In this document: one piece after another, positions 4,957-9,460 of the stretch
Layout: every line of letters begins with the position of its first letter
How positions within the stretch are numbered: position 1 is the first letter of the stretch
IMG/VR virus record: IMGVR_UViG_3300031834_000022
Coordinates: 1-32,499 of that record
Direction: 5' to 3' (one strand)
DNA length: 32,499 nt
From: a virus
Notes under the pieces: generated by a model
Seen by the model: the letters and a program-made list of their open reading frames with translations, nothing else
Database searches by the model: none
What the model was told of the DNA's origin: nothing
Program-made: the position numbers and the translations under genes

Positions 4957-5910
4957 TTAAACGAATATTACGTAGTTGAAGGTTTCGGTTCCGGCCGCTG
5001 TGTCGTGCGCGACCGTGAAACTTACCCCGTTGCTGATCGCCGAGATGTAAGCGTTAAGGCCTGCAGCCGCGGCAGAAGTCGGCGTCAAGAAGATCTTGTT
5101 ACCAGTCCCTGCGGAAGCAGTGGCAACTATGGAGGTCGCACCGCCAGTTGCTGTGAACGTGCCTGTCACCTTAGCACCTGCAAAACCGGAGTAACCGGAA
5201 CTGCCTGCTATGCCGGAGTAACCGGAAGCAGGAGAAACGCCGGAATAACCGGACGCGCTCGTCGCTCCAGAATAACCGGAAGTGCCAGCAATACCAGAAT
5301 AACCTGAAGCCAGCGTCACACCGCTGTACCCAGAGAGACCCAAGATTCCGGAGTAACCGGAACTGCCTGCGATACCGGAGTAACCTGATTCGCCAAGACT
5401 CTCTCCTGAGAAGCCAGAGTAACCGGAAGTTCCAACGATACCAGAATAACCGGAAGTTCCGACGATGCCAGAGTAACCTGATTTACCGGAATACCCAGAA
5501 ATTCCTACGATACCGGAGTAACCCGAGTCCCCAGAGAAACCAGAGTAACCGGATCTACCGACGATGCCAGAGTAACCTGACTTGCCGGAATATCCAGAAG
5601 TTCCAACGATGCCGGAGTAACCGGAACCGCCCACGATGCCGGAGTAACCGGAACCGCCTATGATGCCCGAGTAGCCAGAAGCACCCATTCCTGAGTAACC
5701 GCTGAAGCCGGAGTAACCGGAACCGCCGGTCGCACCGGCTCCACCCGACATTCCAGAATAACCGGAGAAACCTGACAGACCGGAAATTCCTTGCGTGCCT
5801 ATTCCAGGCGCACCGGAAGCTCCGCTAAAGTCCGAGATCTCCGACATGGTGTGCGAGTGGTTGTGAAAAGTGTTTTCGTACTTGAAGCCGGATGGCGTGT
5901 AGTCTGACAT
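4957..5910 (-). CDS. Collagen-like repeat fibre protein
   Basis: A 317-aa protein in three parts. Residues 1-29 are a polar N-terminus with a His-rich stretch (FHNHSHTMSE). Residues 30-247 are Gly-X-Y triplets with about 22 copies of SGYSG, often as GYSGIVG or GYSGIAG. Residues 248-317 are a beta-rich domain shared with the neighbouring 114-aa protein. The triplet pattern should form a collagen-like triple helix, but proline is almost absent and Ser/Tyr dominate. Breaks occur at GI, GM, GESL and three places where Gly is replaced (GVTLAS, GATSAS, GVSPAS). A GGAGG ribosome site precedes the ATG. It is probably a head or tail fibre whose C-terminal domain drives trimer formation or binding. Confidence 0.85.
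   Translation of the reverse strand: MSDYTPSGFKYENTFHNHSHTMSEISDFSGASGAPGIGTQGISGLSGFSGYSGMSGGAGATGGSGYSGFSGYSGMGASGYSGIIGGSGYSGIVGGSGYSGIVGTSGYSGKSGYSGIVGRSGYSGFSGDSGYSGIVGISGYSGKSGYSGIVGTSGYSGIVGTSGYSGFSGESLGESGYSGIAGSSGYSGILGLSGYSGVTLASGYSGIAGTSGYSGATSASGYSGVSPASGYSGIAGSSGYSGFAGAKVTGTFTATGGATSIVATASAGTGNKIFLTPTSAAAAGLNAYISAISNGVSFTVAHDTAAGTETFNYVIFV
5170..5823 (-). repeat. Tandem coding repeats (Gly-X-Y, SGYSG units)
   Basis: About 650 bp of degenerate short repeats, seen on the plus strand as many copies of CCGGAGTAACCGGAA-like units. They encode the collagen-like shaft. The units are 18 to 36 bases, multiples of three, so the frame is kept when unit number changes. Such repeats are prone to expansion and contraction by recombination. 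Confidence 0.85.
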
Positions 5911-6033: not shown

Positions 6034-7515
6034 TTAGAGCCTGATGTTTATCACTCTCGTCCACTTTTGTGGGACAAAGATAATTGGCATCCCGTAAAGC
6101 AAGATCATCCACTTGTAGGCCGGTGCGATGGTGGCAAGGTCCATCTTTACCAGCGGTGCAAGCTGCCTGAACGTCAGTACGTCCGAGGTGTTCTGTCCGA
6201 TGAACGCCGTGTAGGTGTTGGGAAGTCTCTTTCCGTCCCAGTCAAAGGTCTGACCGGCATTGGTAAGAGGAAGTCTCTGCACCCAGTAACAGGTGGCCGC
6301 TTCCGCAAGAACTTCTGAGGCCGCCGGTTCGCTGACGAACAGGTTAAGGTACTCCGCGTTGTCCGCAGCCGTCGCATCAGGACCGCTGAGGGTCATTCTG
6401 ATCGTCTGAGAGGCGCTGACGGTATACGCAGCGGAGGTGTTGGTAGCGGTCGCGAAAGGCTGTCCGCTGTTGATGGCAAGCGTCTCACCGTACTTGTTCT
6501 CCCAGGTGTACTGGACCCTGTACCAACCGGCTCCAGGAGCGGTCACTACGGTACCAGCGTTAGAAGCGGTGACGGTAAGCGCCTTTGCGGCGGCCATCGT
6601 GTCGCTCTTCAGGATCTTGGAGGCCGTAGGAGCAGTCCTTGTCTTCTGGAGGAAGTAGGTCGGCTTCAGGTTGACCTTTCCCGCCTGGGTCATCAGACTG
6701 TCCACGTTGATGTTGAGTTGGGTGTTGCCCTGAGGCGTAGGAAGGACGATACGCTGAGCGGCAGTGCCCGCGAACTCGTCGTTGATCTTCGCCAACAGTT
6801 GGTACGGAAGGTAGATGTCAGTTGGGAAACCGAACTGGTCGACTACTGTCTGAGCCAGAGAGTTTACGACGGTCGTGAAAGGCGTTGTGGCCAGGTTCAC
6901 GTTGCGCATGTCGTAGTTGTTTCCACCACCGGTACCGATTCCGGTCGCTCCACCGATCTGCTGATCGAGGCCCGCCCACTCCACGTATTCTGCGGCGTCA
7001 CGGCCCTTATCGTTGCCCCAGAAGAGGGCGTTTTCGATCTGGCGCAGCATCCACATGATGCCGTTGCTGTTCTCCTGAGCGATAACGTCAGGAACCATCG
7101 TACGAACGAGGGTCATAGGGTGGGAGACCGAACGGGTCGTTCCCACGTACTTGACCAGGGCTACCTTACGTAAGTAGTCCGACGTGGTTGAGTAAGGAAG
7201 TTCGCCTTCCGTCACAAACCCACCGGTCTGAGTTCCGTAAGAGGTCAGCTGGTTGTATTCCTCAACGGTGCTGTAAGCAGGCGTCTTAGGAATGTCTTTC
7301 CAGAAGTTGATGTGCTTGTCGGTGAAGGTGATGACCTTCAGCGAACTGTCAAGCGACTGCACCCTAAGTGCCGCGCCGCCGGTGGTACCGTCAATTGCGA
7401 TACCCGCGGTTGAGACTCCGCCTGCGAGACCAAGAGCCGCGGCACCTTCCAGCGCCTTGTTCAGCTCCTGAACGTCTTGGCCGGACCCAATCCCGAATCC
7501 GTTAAAATCTAACAT
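6034..7515 (-). CDS. Major capsid protein (HK97-fold type)
   Basis: A 493-aa protein. Residues 1-56 are an Ala/Gly-rich N-terminal arm. Residues 57-300 have the pattern of a large HK97-fold capsid protein (FWKDIPKTPAYSTVEEYNQL, LRQIENALFWGNDKG, FGFPTDIYLPYQLLAKI). Residues 310-430 are Ala/Thr-rich beta strands with YRVQYTWENKYGETLA, like an inserted Ig-like surface domain. The chain returns to the core with RQLAPLVKMDLA and ends MPIIFVPQKWTRVINIRL. Residues 33-55 (GVSTAGIAIDGTTGGAAL and onwards) are almost repeated in the prohead protease. A strong GGAGG ribosome site precedes the ATG. Order protease, scaffold, capsid is the usual head module order, which supports the call. Confidence 0.87.
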   Translation of the reverse strand: MLDFNGFGIGSGQDVQELNKALEGAAALGLAGGVSTAGIAIDGTTGGAALRVQSLDSSLKVITFTDKHINFWKDIPKTPAYSTVEEYNQLTSYGTQTGGFVTEGELPYSTTSDYLRKVALVKYVGTTRSVSHPMTLVRTMVPDVIAQENSNGIMWMLRQIENALFWGNDKGRDAAEYVEWAGLDQQIGGATGIGTGGGNNYDMRNVNLATTPFTTVVNSLAQTVVDQFGFPTDIYLPYQLLAKINDEFAGTAAQRIVLPTPQGNTQLNINVDSLMTQAGKVNLKPTYFLQKTRTAPTASKILKSDTMAAAKALTVTASNAGTVVTAPGAGWYRVQYTWENKYGETLAINSGQPFATATNTSAAYTVSASQTIRMTLSGPDATAADNAEYLNLFVSEPAASEVLAEAATCYWVQRLPLTNAGQTFDWDGKRLPNTYTAFIGQNTSDVLTFRQLAPLVKMDLATIAPAYKWMILLYGMPIIFVPQKWTRVINIRL

Positions 7516-7538
7516 TTTTGTCCTCCGTTAGAATTTGT

Positions 7539-8450
7539 TTAGAGACCTAGAGAAGTTCTAATGTTCTCAGGTATTACGTTAATGTCCCCAGATGTCTCAA
7601 ACTTGACCACCGTGTGAGGATCTACTCCTTGGCCCTTCATCGACATGTCCAAGAGAGCATCACAGATCTCAGACTTTGACATAGTAGACGTGCCTTCCAT
7701 ACTTTCATTCTTTATCATGTCGGACTTCTTAAGGACCGACTTGCGAACCGAAAGTGCCTTGGTGATGTTCGTGAGAACCTTTTCCACCAGAGCGACCTTG
7801 TCCGTGTACTCGTTGTGGGACTTTTCGATGTCCTCGACTCTTTCGAGCGTGGCTTCGATGGAAGCGGCAAGACCGGTTCCTATGATCTCGGACTGTGAGG
7901 CCTTGGCAAACGCGTCGGCGTACTTGTCTTCGATCAGAGCGATGACCTCTTCGACAACGCTCTTGGCGATCTCCGCCTTGAACTCGTCAATGTCTAGATA
8001 GATCGCGGCCGAAGGAGTTGAAGCTTTCTTCTCGTCCTCTTTCCCAGTCTTTCTTTCCTTCTTCTCTTCCTCTTCCGATTCGCCGGCTTCGTGTTGAGGA
8101 TTCTTGTCGTCTTCTTCGTCGTCGCCGCCCTTGGTCAGATCGGCATCTTCGATAGACTTTTCTCCACCCTCGTGCTTCTTGGTCTCAGGACGCGCCAAAG
8201 GAGCGTTTCCGCCACCTTCTTTGGTGTTGATGTAACCCTGATTTTCGCCTTCGTCAATGTCAACTTGGACCTTGCCAGGTTCAGGACGAGACAAAGGACC
8301 TAAATTCTTTTTGGCCCGAGTTCCAGAGTTAGCAGGATTCTTTTCCTTCTTCTCTTCGTCTTCCTTAGGCGGAGTACTCAGGGTGTGCTCGACAGCTTCC
8401 CCTGCTGACGCCTTATTGATGAGATCATCGATTCTTTTCAGTAATGACAT
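7539..8450 (-). CDS. Probable capsid scaffolding/assembly protein
   Basis: A 303-aa protein with a highly charged, low-complexity first half (runs of Glu, Lys and Asp between residues 25 and 140) and a helical second half. Residues around 145-230 (YLDIDEFKAEIAKSVVEEVI, ASIEATLERVEDIEKSHNEY) are likely coiled coil. The C-terminus (PHTVVKFETSGDINVIPENI) looks folded and could contact the capsid protein. Position between prohead protease and capsid gene, the acidic composition and coiled coil all fit a scaffold. Residues 18-33 (EAVEHTLSTPPKEDEE) resemble a segment of the 213-aa protein at 167-808. A GGAGGAAT ribosome site precedes the ATG. Confidence 0.75.
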   Translation of the reverse strand: MSLLKRIDDLINKASAGEAVEHTLSTPPKEDEEKKEKNPANSGTRAKKNLGPLSRPEPGKVQVDIDEGENQGYINTKEGGGNAPLARPETKKHEGGEKSIEDADLTKGGDDEEDDKNPQHEAGESEEEEKKERKTGKEDEKKASTPSAAIYLDIDEFKAEIAKSVVEEVIALIEDKYADAFAKASQSEIIGTGLAASIEATLERVEDIEKSHNEYTDKVALVEKVLTNITKALSVRKSVLKKSDMIKNESMEGTSTMSKSEICDALLDMSMKGQGVDPHTVVKFETSGDINVIPENIRTSLGL

Positions 8451-8503
8451 GTGATTCCTCCGTCTGTCGGTAAAGTAAATTAACGGAAAATGTAGTTTTT
8501 TCC

Positions 8504-9460
8504 TTAAAAAATATCGCTCTTTTCGAGTACTTGAAAGAAATTGTCCAGGCCGCCTGCTTTCGTTATGAGGTTGATGACCTCGTCGATAACGGCGTCATGA
8601 GCGCCAGGATTGACGGTCTTGATTATGTCGTGGAGTTCTTTCTTGGTCTCGAAAAGAAGAATAGATTTCTTTCTAAACTCATTTTCCATAGTTGGATCAG
8701 TCAGTTGAGTAGTTTCCGGAACGCCCTTGTTCTTCTTTTCTTTAGCACCTTCTAAGTCCTGTTTCCTGATAGCCGCTCCCCCGGTGGTTCCTTCGTTGGC
8801 TATTCCTGCAGTTGAGACTCCGGCCTGTAATCCGACAGAACCGACAGCTGCCATGACATCCTTGTTCATGTCATTGATGACGTATCTTAGAACATCATCA
8901 TAATTAGCAGGAACCATGGACTTGGTCAAAAAATCTATAGTTAGGGTGGCCTTGATGTTGACCGGGATGTGCGTGATGGCTACGTTAGTAATTCTTGCTT
9001 TTAGGATCTTGGACTTGTTGACCTCGGACCTCTCCGTGACCTTCCCTTCTATAGAGAAGCCCATGTTTCTCGGGTTCCCTACGTCGTGGAGTTCGCATAT
9101 GAGGTTCCAGACGTGGTTGGCCATCTCAGTCTTGAAGAGCATCCCCTTGACGAAGAGTCCCTTGGAATCTACGTGTGCTTCGGTCGGGCAACCAATTATG
9201 TGACTTGGGGAGTTGTTGTGCATCCAGTTGAACCAACCCTGGGACTTAAAATACGATATGTCCAGGCCTTCTTGGATGACTCTTTCTTTGTCTGTGTCTT
9301 CGTGTCCGGTAGAAGCCATACCCTTAATTATCCTCTGGGTGGCGTTCTTTAGGTCCACCTGTCTGGCCTTCAGGATTTCGGGATCGACTTTTTCTTCGGA
9401 GATGTGAAGGTCGTCGGAAAAGACGTTAAAGTCGTCTTTTATCTCGTCTTGTGTCGTCAT
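8504..9460 (-). CDS. Prohead maturation protease (U35/HK97-type), with C-terminal extension
   Basis: A 318-aa protein. The protease domain covers about residues 40-180. NWMHNN gives the candidate catalytic His81, GFSIEGKV gives Ser136, and ARITNVAITHIPVN near 155-168 matches the strand and Pro-Asn turn that close the domain in this family. The enzyme would cleave scaffold and capsid arms inside the prohead. The C-terminal part (residues 200-318) is not needed for catalysis; it contains residues 213-235, nearly identical to the capsid arm, and a helical end (ELHDIIKTVNPGAHDAVIDE). A GGAGAAG ribosome site precedes the ATG. It is the first gene of the minus-strand unit. Confidence 0.82.
   Translation of the reverse strand: MTTQDEIKDDFNVFSDDLHISEEKVDPEILKARQVDLKNATQRIIKGMASTGHEDTDKERVIQEGLDISYFKSQGWFNWMHNNSPSHIIGCPTEAHVDSKGLFVKGMLFKTEMANHVWNLICELHDVGNPRNMGFSIEGKVTERSEVNKSKILKARITNVAITHIPVNIKATLTIDFLTKSMVPANYDDVLRYVINDMNKDVMAAVGSVGLQAGVSTAGIANEGTTGGAAIRKQDLEGAKEKKNKGVPETTQLTDPTMENEFRKKSILLFETKKELHDIIKTVNPGAHDAVIDEVINLITKAGGLDNFFQVLEKSDIF

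Follow-up and report, generated by a model that had tools for sequence, protein, structure and literature searches.

A segment of the capsid N-terminal arm recurs in the maturation protease of many SPO1-like phages and may serve to dock the enzyme

The virus contig analysed here, 32.5 kb long and referred to as the window, has three head genes in the order protease, scaffold-like protein and major capsid protein; these and all other window features given below are encoded on the minus strand. The capsid gene (6034..7515) specifies a 493-aa protein with an SPO1-like HK97 fold (phrog_752, E=3e-76). Its match to SPO1 gp6.1 (PDB 9vel), by sequence (E=1e-88) as well as by predicted model (E=7e-41), places it among the SPO1-like (Herelleviridae-type) capsid proteins. 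The prohead maturation protease gene (8504..9460, 318 aa) was identified by phrog_1028 (E=2e-51) and by PF04586 Peptidase_S78, for which it scores 23.7 bits, above the curated cut-off of 21. Between the two lies the gene for a 303-aa protein (7539..8450) that we call scaffold-like on the basis of its position. Relatives were compared through their head genes only. Elsewhere in the window we noted a 317-aa protein consisting mostly of SGYSG repeats, with a collagen-like look (4957-5910), a 213-aa Lys/Glu-rich protein in which two stretches, DLVKAAIAVLEDYLEKG and DLVKASVEVLKNFLGEE, resemble each other (167-808), and, near the structural genes, a 163-aa ORF with a by-eye resemblance to a GIY-YIG-type homing endonuclease (825-1316).

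The predicted model of the protease comprises a confident domain at residues 17-173 (8942..9412), a disordered stretch at 174-256, and four helices that form a C-terminal tail at 256-315 (8516..8695). The first of these is the catalytic domain, in which all 38 sequences compared have H81 and S136; given what is known of the fold, we take these two residues to be the putative catalytic His and Ser. Nearly all of the top 50 PDB fold matches to the model are herpesvirus proteases or T4 gp21, at low TM-scores and with E values of 0.0025-0.02 (none below 0.001), and a search by sequence for solved relatives of the protease found none.

Residues 33-55 of the capsid N-arm (7351..7419) and residues 214-236 of the protease (8753..8821), the latter referred to below as the mimic, are identical at 18 of 23 positions. 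This match, the position of the capsid copy, the likeness of the upstream residues and the similarity of the underlying DNA had all been reported in a preliminary description of the locus, and all were borne out on recalculation; only the protease copy, previously placed at 213-235 (8756-8824), had to be shifted by one residue, or 3 nt. At the DNA level 47 of 69 nt are identical, with third codon positions equal in 8 of 23 codons, and the protein alignment reaches further upstream (capsid 15-58, protease 195-239). Both copies fall in regions that are disordered in single-chain models, residues 24-66 of the lone capsid subunit and 174-256 of the protease. No other copy of the 23-residue segment exceeding 9/23 was found in the six frames of the window. 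Gly, Ala and Thr are abundant in the segment, as might be expected if chance or composition bias had produced the match. However, the Smith-Waterman score of the whole capsid against the whole protease is 108, whereas the highest among 1000 shuffles was 61, and the match recurs and co-varies across the family (see below). We regard a chance origin as refuted, its remaining probability being negligible, and it is almost certain that the shared segment is real and coupled between capsid and protease.

The capsid arm also carries a probable processing site. In the deposited mature capsid of Staphylococcus phage 812 (9row) the chain starts at S25 of 463, directly after K24, and residues 25 onward, including the equivalent of the segment, are retained. 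Retention of residues 1-60 in the mature capsid, which would have told against the earlier interpretation, is contradicted by this homologue, in which the first 24 residues are lost. For SPO1 gp6.1, the 445 residues recorded for chain B of 9vel would, provided that they have no gaps, correspond to A24-468. K24|S25 aligns to K20-A21 of the window capsid (7453..7458), a pair that is invariant in 42 capsids and sits 12 residues upstream of the segment. K20-A21 is therefore the predicted scissile bond, and residues 1-20 (7456..7515), aligned to the 1-24 absent from mature 812, are a predicted removed propeptide. The predicted self-cleavage (release) site of the protease is K180-S181 (8918..8923), where the catalytic domain ends; it shows no variation among 13 proteases, and among 38 its conservation is 90% or more. 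From conservation and alignment we infer that K20|A21 and K180|S181 are probably the cut sites in the phage of the window. Our search of the phage 812 neck paper for capsid cleavage data found none.

A short motif of the same kind is strongly over-represented in the scaffolds. K[SA][LFM] occurs 164 times in 41 non-redundant scaffolds against 23 expected (about seven-fold), and K[SA]-hydrophobic motifs 225 times against 33 in the scaffold genes of all 57 relatives, often with 4-7 copies per protein in the SPO1 group. This excess predicts multi-site digestion. The capsid cores hold 4 copies of K[SA][LFM] where 12.6 were expected, the upstream ORFs, which probably encode the portal, hold 24 against 14 (within the shuffle range), and K[DE][LFM] shows no enrichment in scaffolds. 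At P3, a position outside the search pattern, Leu, Val or Ile is 4- to 5-fold over background in scaffolds, and P3 is hydrophobic in capsids too. We take [LVI]xK|[SA][LFM] to be the putative cleavage signature of the family. It was derived from sequence; its K|S-F core is matched by the mature 812 capsid, and it is fitted by K180-S181 of the protease and by K231-A232 of the window's scaffold-like protein (ITK|ALS, 7755..7760), a predicted cleavage site. The scaffold sites, too, would probably be cut.

The protease position that aligns with capsid K20|A21 is K200-D201 (8858..8863), which is predicted to be uncleavable in the window's clade given that K[DE][LFM] is unenriched. K-D-[LIV] stands at this position in 14 of the 15 listed sequences from the window clade and the soil clades, which are not all distinct, and these clades keep the mimic although the adjacent lysine precedes Asp. 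The best reading of the protease layout is an S78 catalytic domain (17-173), a predicted release site (K180|S181), the mimic (214-236) and the helical tail (256-315).

What, then, is the segment for? The preliminary description considered it a common cleavage or docking sequence, or else a duplicated delta/scaffold domain. As a cleavage sequence it fares badly, since the scissile bond predicted from the start of mature 812 and from the 42 capsids lies upstream of it. It could still be argued that both segments are the recognition sequence around a cut, read by one active site: in most clades K|[AS][LF] opens the shared stretch in both proteins, and the 812 capsid is cut at that lysine. The similarity, however, is too long. 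In a position table of 27 representative pairs with aligned lysines, for which a match at P1 was the selection criterion, own-pair identity stays close to background as far as P2, is full at P1 and remains high until about P31', and own identity exceeds cross identity at most positions out to the same point. An active site usually reads only about P4-P4'. Moreover, local alignment shows no long segment in scaffolds that have many of the short sites, nor in the window's own scaffold-like protein (score 24 against the capsid N-terminus; shuffle 95th percentile 37), and in the window's clade the protease segment has no fitting cut site. We consider this reading improbable, and the segment does not appear, from sequence comparison, to be a cleavage site. 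Nor does it resemble a delta/scaffold domain: in HK97 the delta domain is the N-terminal part that is removed, whereas the segment lies C-terminal of the predicted K20|A21, on the retained side of the cut, and the scaffold holds no copy.

Both segments are present in the nearest relatives of the window among viral contigs, and the pairing was found in SPO1, 812, Listeria and Pseudomonas phages and many uncultured relatives. Own-phage capsid/protease scores range from 104 to 140 in LysYB1 (140), EalM132 (123), LMTA-34 (119), 812 (114), SPO1 and Touem01 (both 111), Revolver (104) and Goe26, a range that includes the window's 108, and from 58 to 79 in Goe8, PHB04, 521B, LfeInf, 3-521 and AVP. Eighty further loci supplied many more pairs, a minority of them weak. 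The match is weak or absent in some relatives (L012, at 35-37, L095, L113, L117, L119 and L123), and Bacteroides phage SJC03 scored 28 with an uncertain protease gene assignment; because this assignment is a guess, the pair was excluded from the statistics. The middle of the segment is lineage-specific yet agrees within each phage, reading in capsid/protease GYATSPETQ/GYATTPETQ, GYGSDMNDLSGG/GYGSDMANLSGG, GVTDQAGGGAFRVESLE/GVTDQTGGSALRVESLE, FGSSNY/FGSSNY or GVSTAGIA/GVSTAGIA according to lineage. In locus L071 (3393-5636) the protease measures 748 aa, with an insertion of about 440 residues that separates the catalytic domain from the mimic and the helical tail; the mimic remains joined to the tail, 440 aa from the catalytic domain. 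Similar insertions occur in L072-L074 and L107. In Lactobacillus phage LfeInf (L037) the capsid gene precedes the protease gene, and a weaker shared segment is still present. Four loci (L077, L095, L117 and L123) encode long proteases of 446-569 aa with acidic, scaffold-like C-terminal parts, resembling protease-scaffold fusions, and have a weak or absent capsid-arm copy.

If an old duplication had been followed by independent evolution of the two copies, a capsid segment would be expected to resemble the protease of a distant phage as closely as its own. This is not what we observed. In tests that count clades which are not fully independent, own pairs of 29 phages scored 85 on average against 49 for other pairs (permutation p=5e-5), and own pairs of 32 phages with capsid-core identity below 70% scored 76.8 against 48.8 for mismatched pairs (p=5e-5). 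Scores across phages increase with relatedness (Mantel rho 0.34, p=2e-4; 32 phages), and own pairs are not higher than same-clade pairs, indicating that most of the coupling is visible at clade level. At close range, matching substitutions in both proteins were seen in L007 (IA to IVT) and L022 (GSSN to GSDN). The segments thus co-vary across homologues, which was the check that the preliminary description had itself put forward, and its proposal of a shared docking function becomes plausible on this ground.

Co-variation and codon usage also bear on whether the segment is a relic of a duplicated domain, or has been copied repeatedly between the genes by recombination. The long colinear similarity and the closeness of the genes would suit such an origin, but co-variation is not expected of a relic, and recent copying should be visible as shared codons. 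Across the 29 phages, codons at identical residues coincide in 227 of 585 cases against 243 expected. As this is no more than chance would give, the match is maintained by selection at the protein level and not by recent DNA copying. Recombination as a recent event was rejected on this negative codon test. The data leave room for old copying inside each lineage; taken as a whole, we hold a relic or recombinational origin to be very unlikely.

Duda, Oh and Hendrix reportedly mapped a capsid-targeting signal of the HK97 protease to its C-terminal fifth in 2013. In HK97 Prohead I the N-arm is flexible, and in Prohead II it stands where the scaffold was (PMC10275583); the authors of the work on D3 considered that a flexible arm might leave the cut site exposed (PMC12749128). 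Given this behaviour of the arm, and given that our segment lies at the start of the mature arm, we therefore propose docking by copy. In such a mechanism the mimic would occupy the procapsid site at which the capsid arm docks, whether on the inner shell or on scaffold, and would bring the enzyme in beside its substrate; a cut at K180|S181 would free the catalytic domain, which would then digest the scaffold and the capsid arms. That the mimic docks the protease where the capsid arm docks is in our judgement an even call. The wider proposition, that mimicry of the capsid N-arm provides SPO1-like phages with a co-evolving docking tag, separable from the short cleavage site, by which the maturation protease is loaded, positioned and made specific to the phage's own procapsid, is offered more tentatively, at somewhat under even chances.

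The coupling suggests that the enzyme and the shell protein share a docking partner during assembly, and any partner common to both would explain the co-variation, an exosite on the protease itself among them. A profile comparison of the scaffold with the protease C-terminal tail showed no relation. The main rival to docking has the mimic act on the protease itself, as a pseudosubstrate or as the ligand of an exosite; it would fold onto the catalytic domain and either hold it inactive or compete with the capsid arm, which would use the same exosite when it is cut. This would account for the co-variation and for the K-D beside the mimic in the window and soil clades, and the linker that follows the catalytic domain and holds the segment is indeed flexible. 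Against it, the L071 mimic is separated from its catalytic domain by 440 aa, and the single-chain model places no docked mimic on the catalytic domain, which may count weakly. The mimic and the arm are disordered in both single-chain models, so docking is not readable from the predictions. We see a pseudosubstrate or exosite role as possible though on the unlikely side, and the present data do not separate it from docking.

Several elements of the system are of known kinds, namely S78 proteases, the cutting of capsids at Lys and targeting signals at the C-terminus. In a partial search of the literature we found no prior report of sequence sharing between capsid and protease in SPO1-like phages, nor of a protease copy of the capsid arm whose changes track those of the capsid. 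How proteases enter procapsids, and how cutting is timed, is poorly known beyond HK97 and T4. An arm copy of about 30 residues that selection keeps matched to the capsid in many SPO1-like phages, the well-studied SPO1 and 812 among them, provides a short, swappable element for testing recruitment, and with the [LVI]xK|[SA][LFM] signature cut sites can be predicted throughout the group. Should the mimic prove to be a docking tag, it would also offer a route for loading cargo proteins into SPO1-like capsids.

Comparison with known systems shows which of these features are shared. HK97 gp4 is presumably an S78-type protease. Its gene lies next to that of the capsid protein, a placement similar to the window's, and it has K-S-V near the end of its catalytic part, like K180-S181 here; the HK97 scaffold is fused to the capsid protein, whereas that of the window is separate. 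HK97 gp4 and gp5 gave no shared segment (score 47, shuffles reaching 54), and neither did the T4 protease and capsid give a match above shuffles. The HK97 capsid is cut at K103|S104 (PMC10275583), which is Lys-directed like the predicted window site. Herpesvirus assemblin has a protease fold that our predicted model may resemble. In that system the protease is joined to the assembly region via a cuttable linker and there are release and maturation sites, which as far as is known are alike over a few residues only and are located in the scaffold, not in the capsid protein. The closest parallels are SPO1 and 812. SPO1 (gp3.2, gp3.3 and gp6.1) has gene order, capsid and protease homology and the mimic in common with the window; its mimic opens with a cleavable-looking K|SL where the aligned site of the window is K-D, and the window arm is about 12 residues longer. 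In 812, too, the arm segment is common to capsid and protease and the mature capsid starts after the equivalent lysine. Unlike in the window, a single K|S of the 812 protease is both the end of the domain and the start of the mimic, and the middle of its segment, ITPDTQ, is unrelated to the GVSTAGIA of the window.
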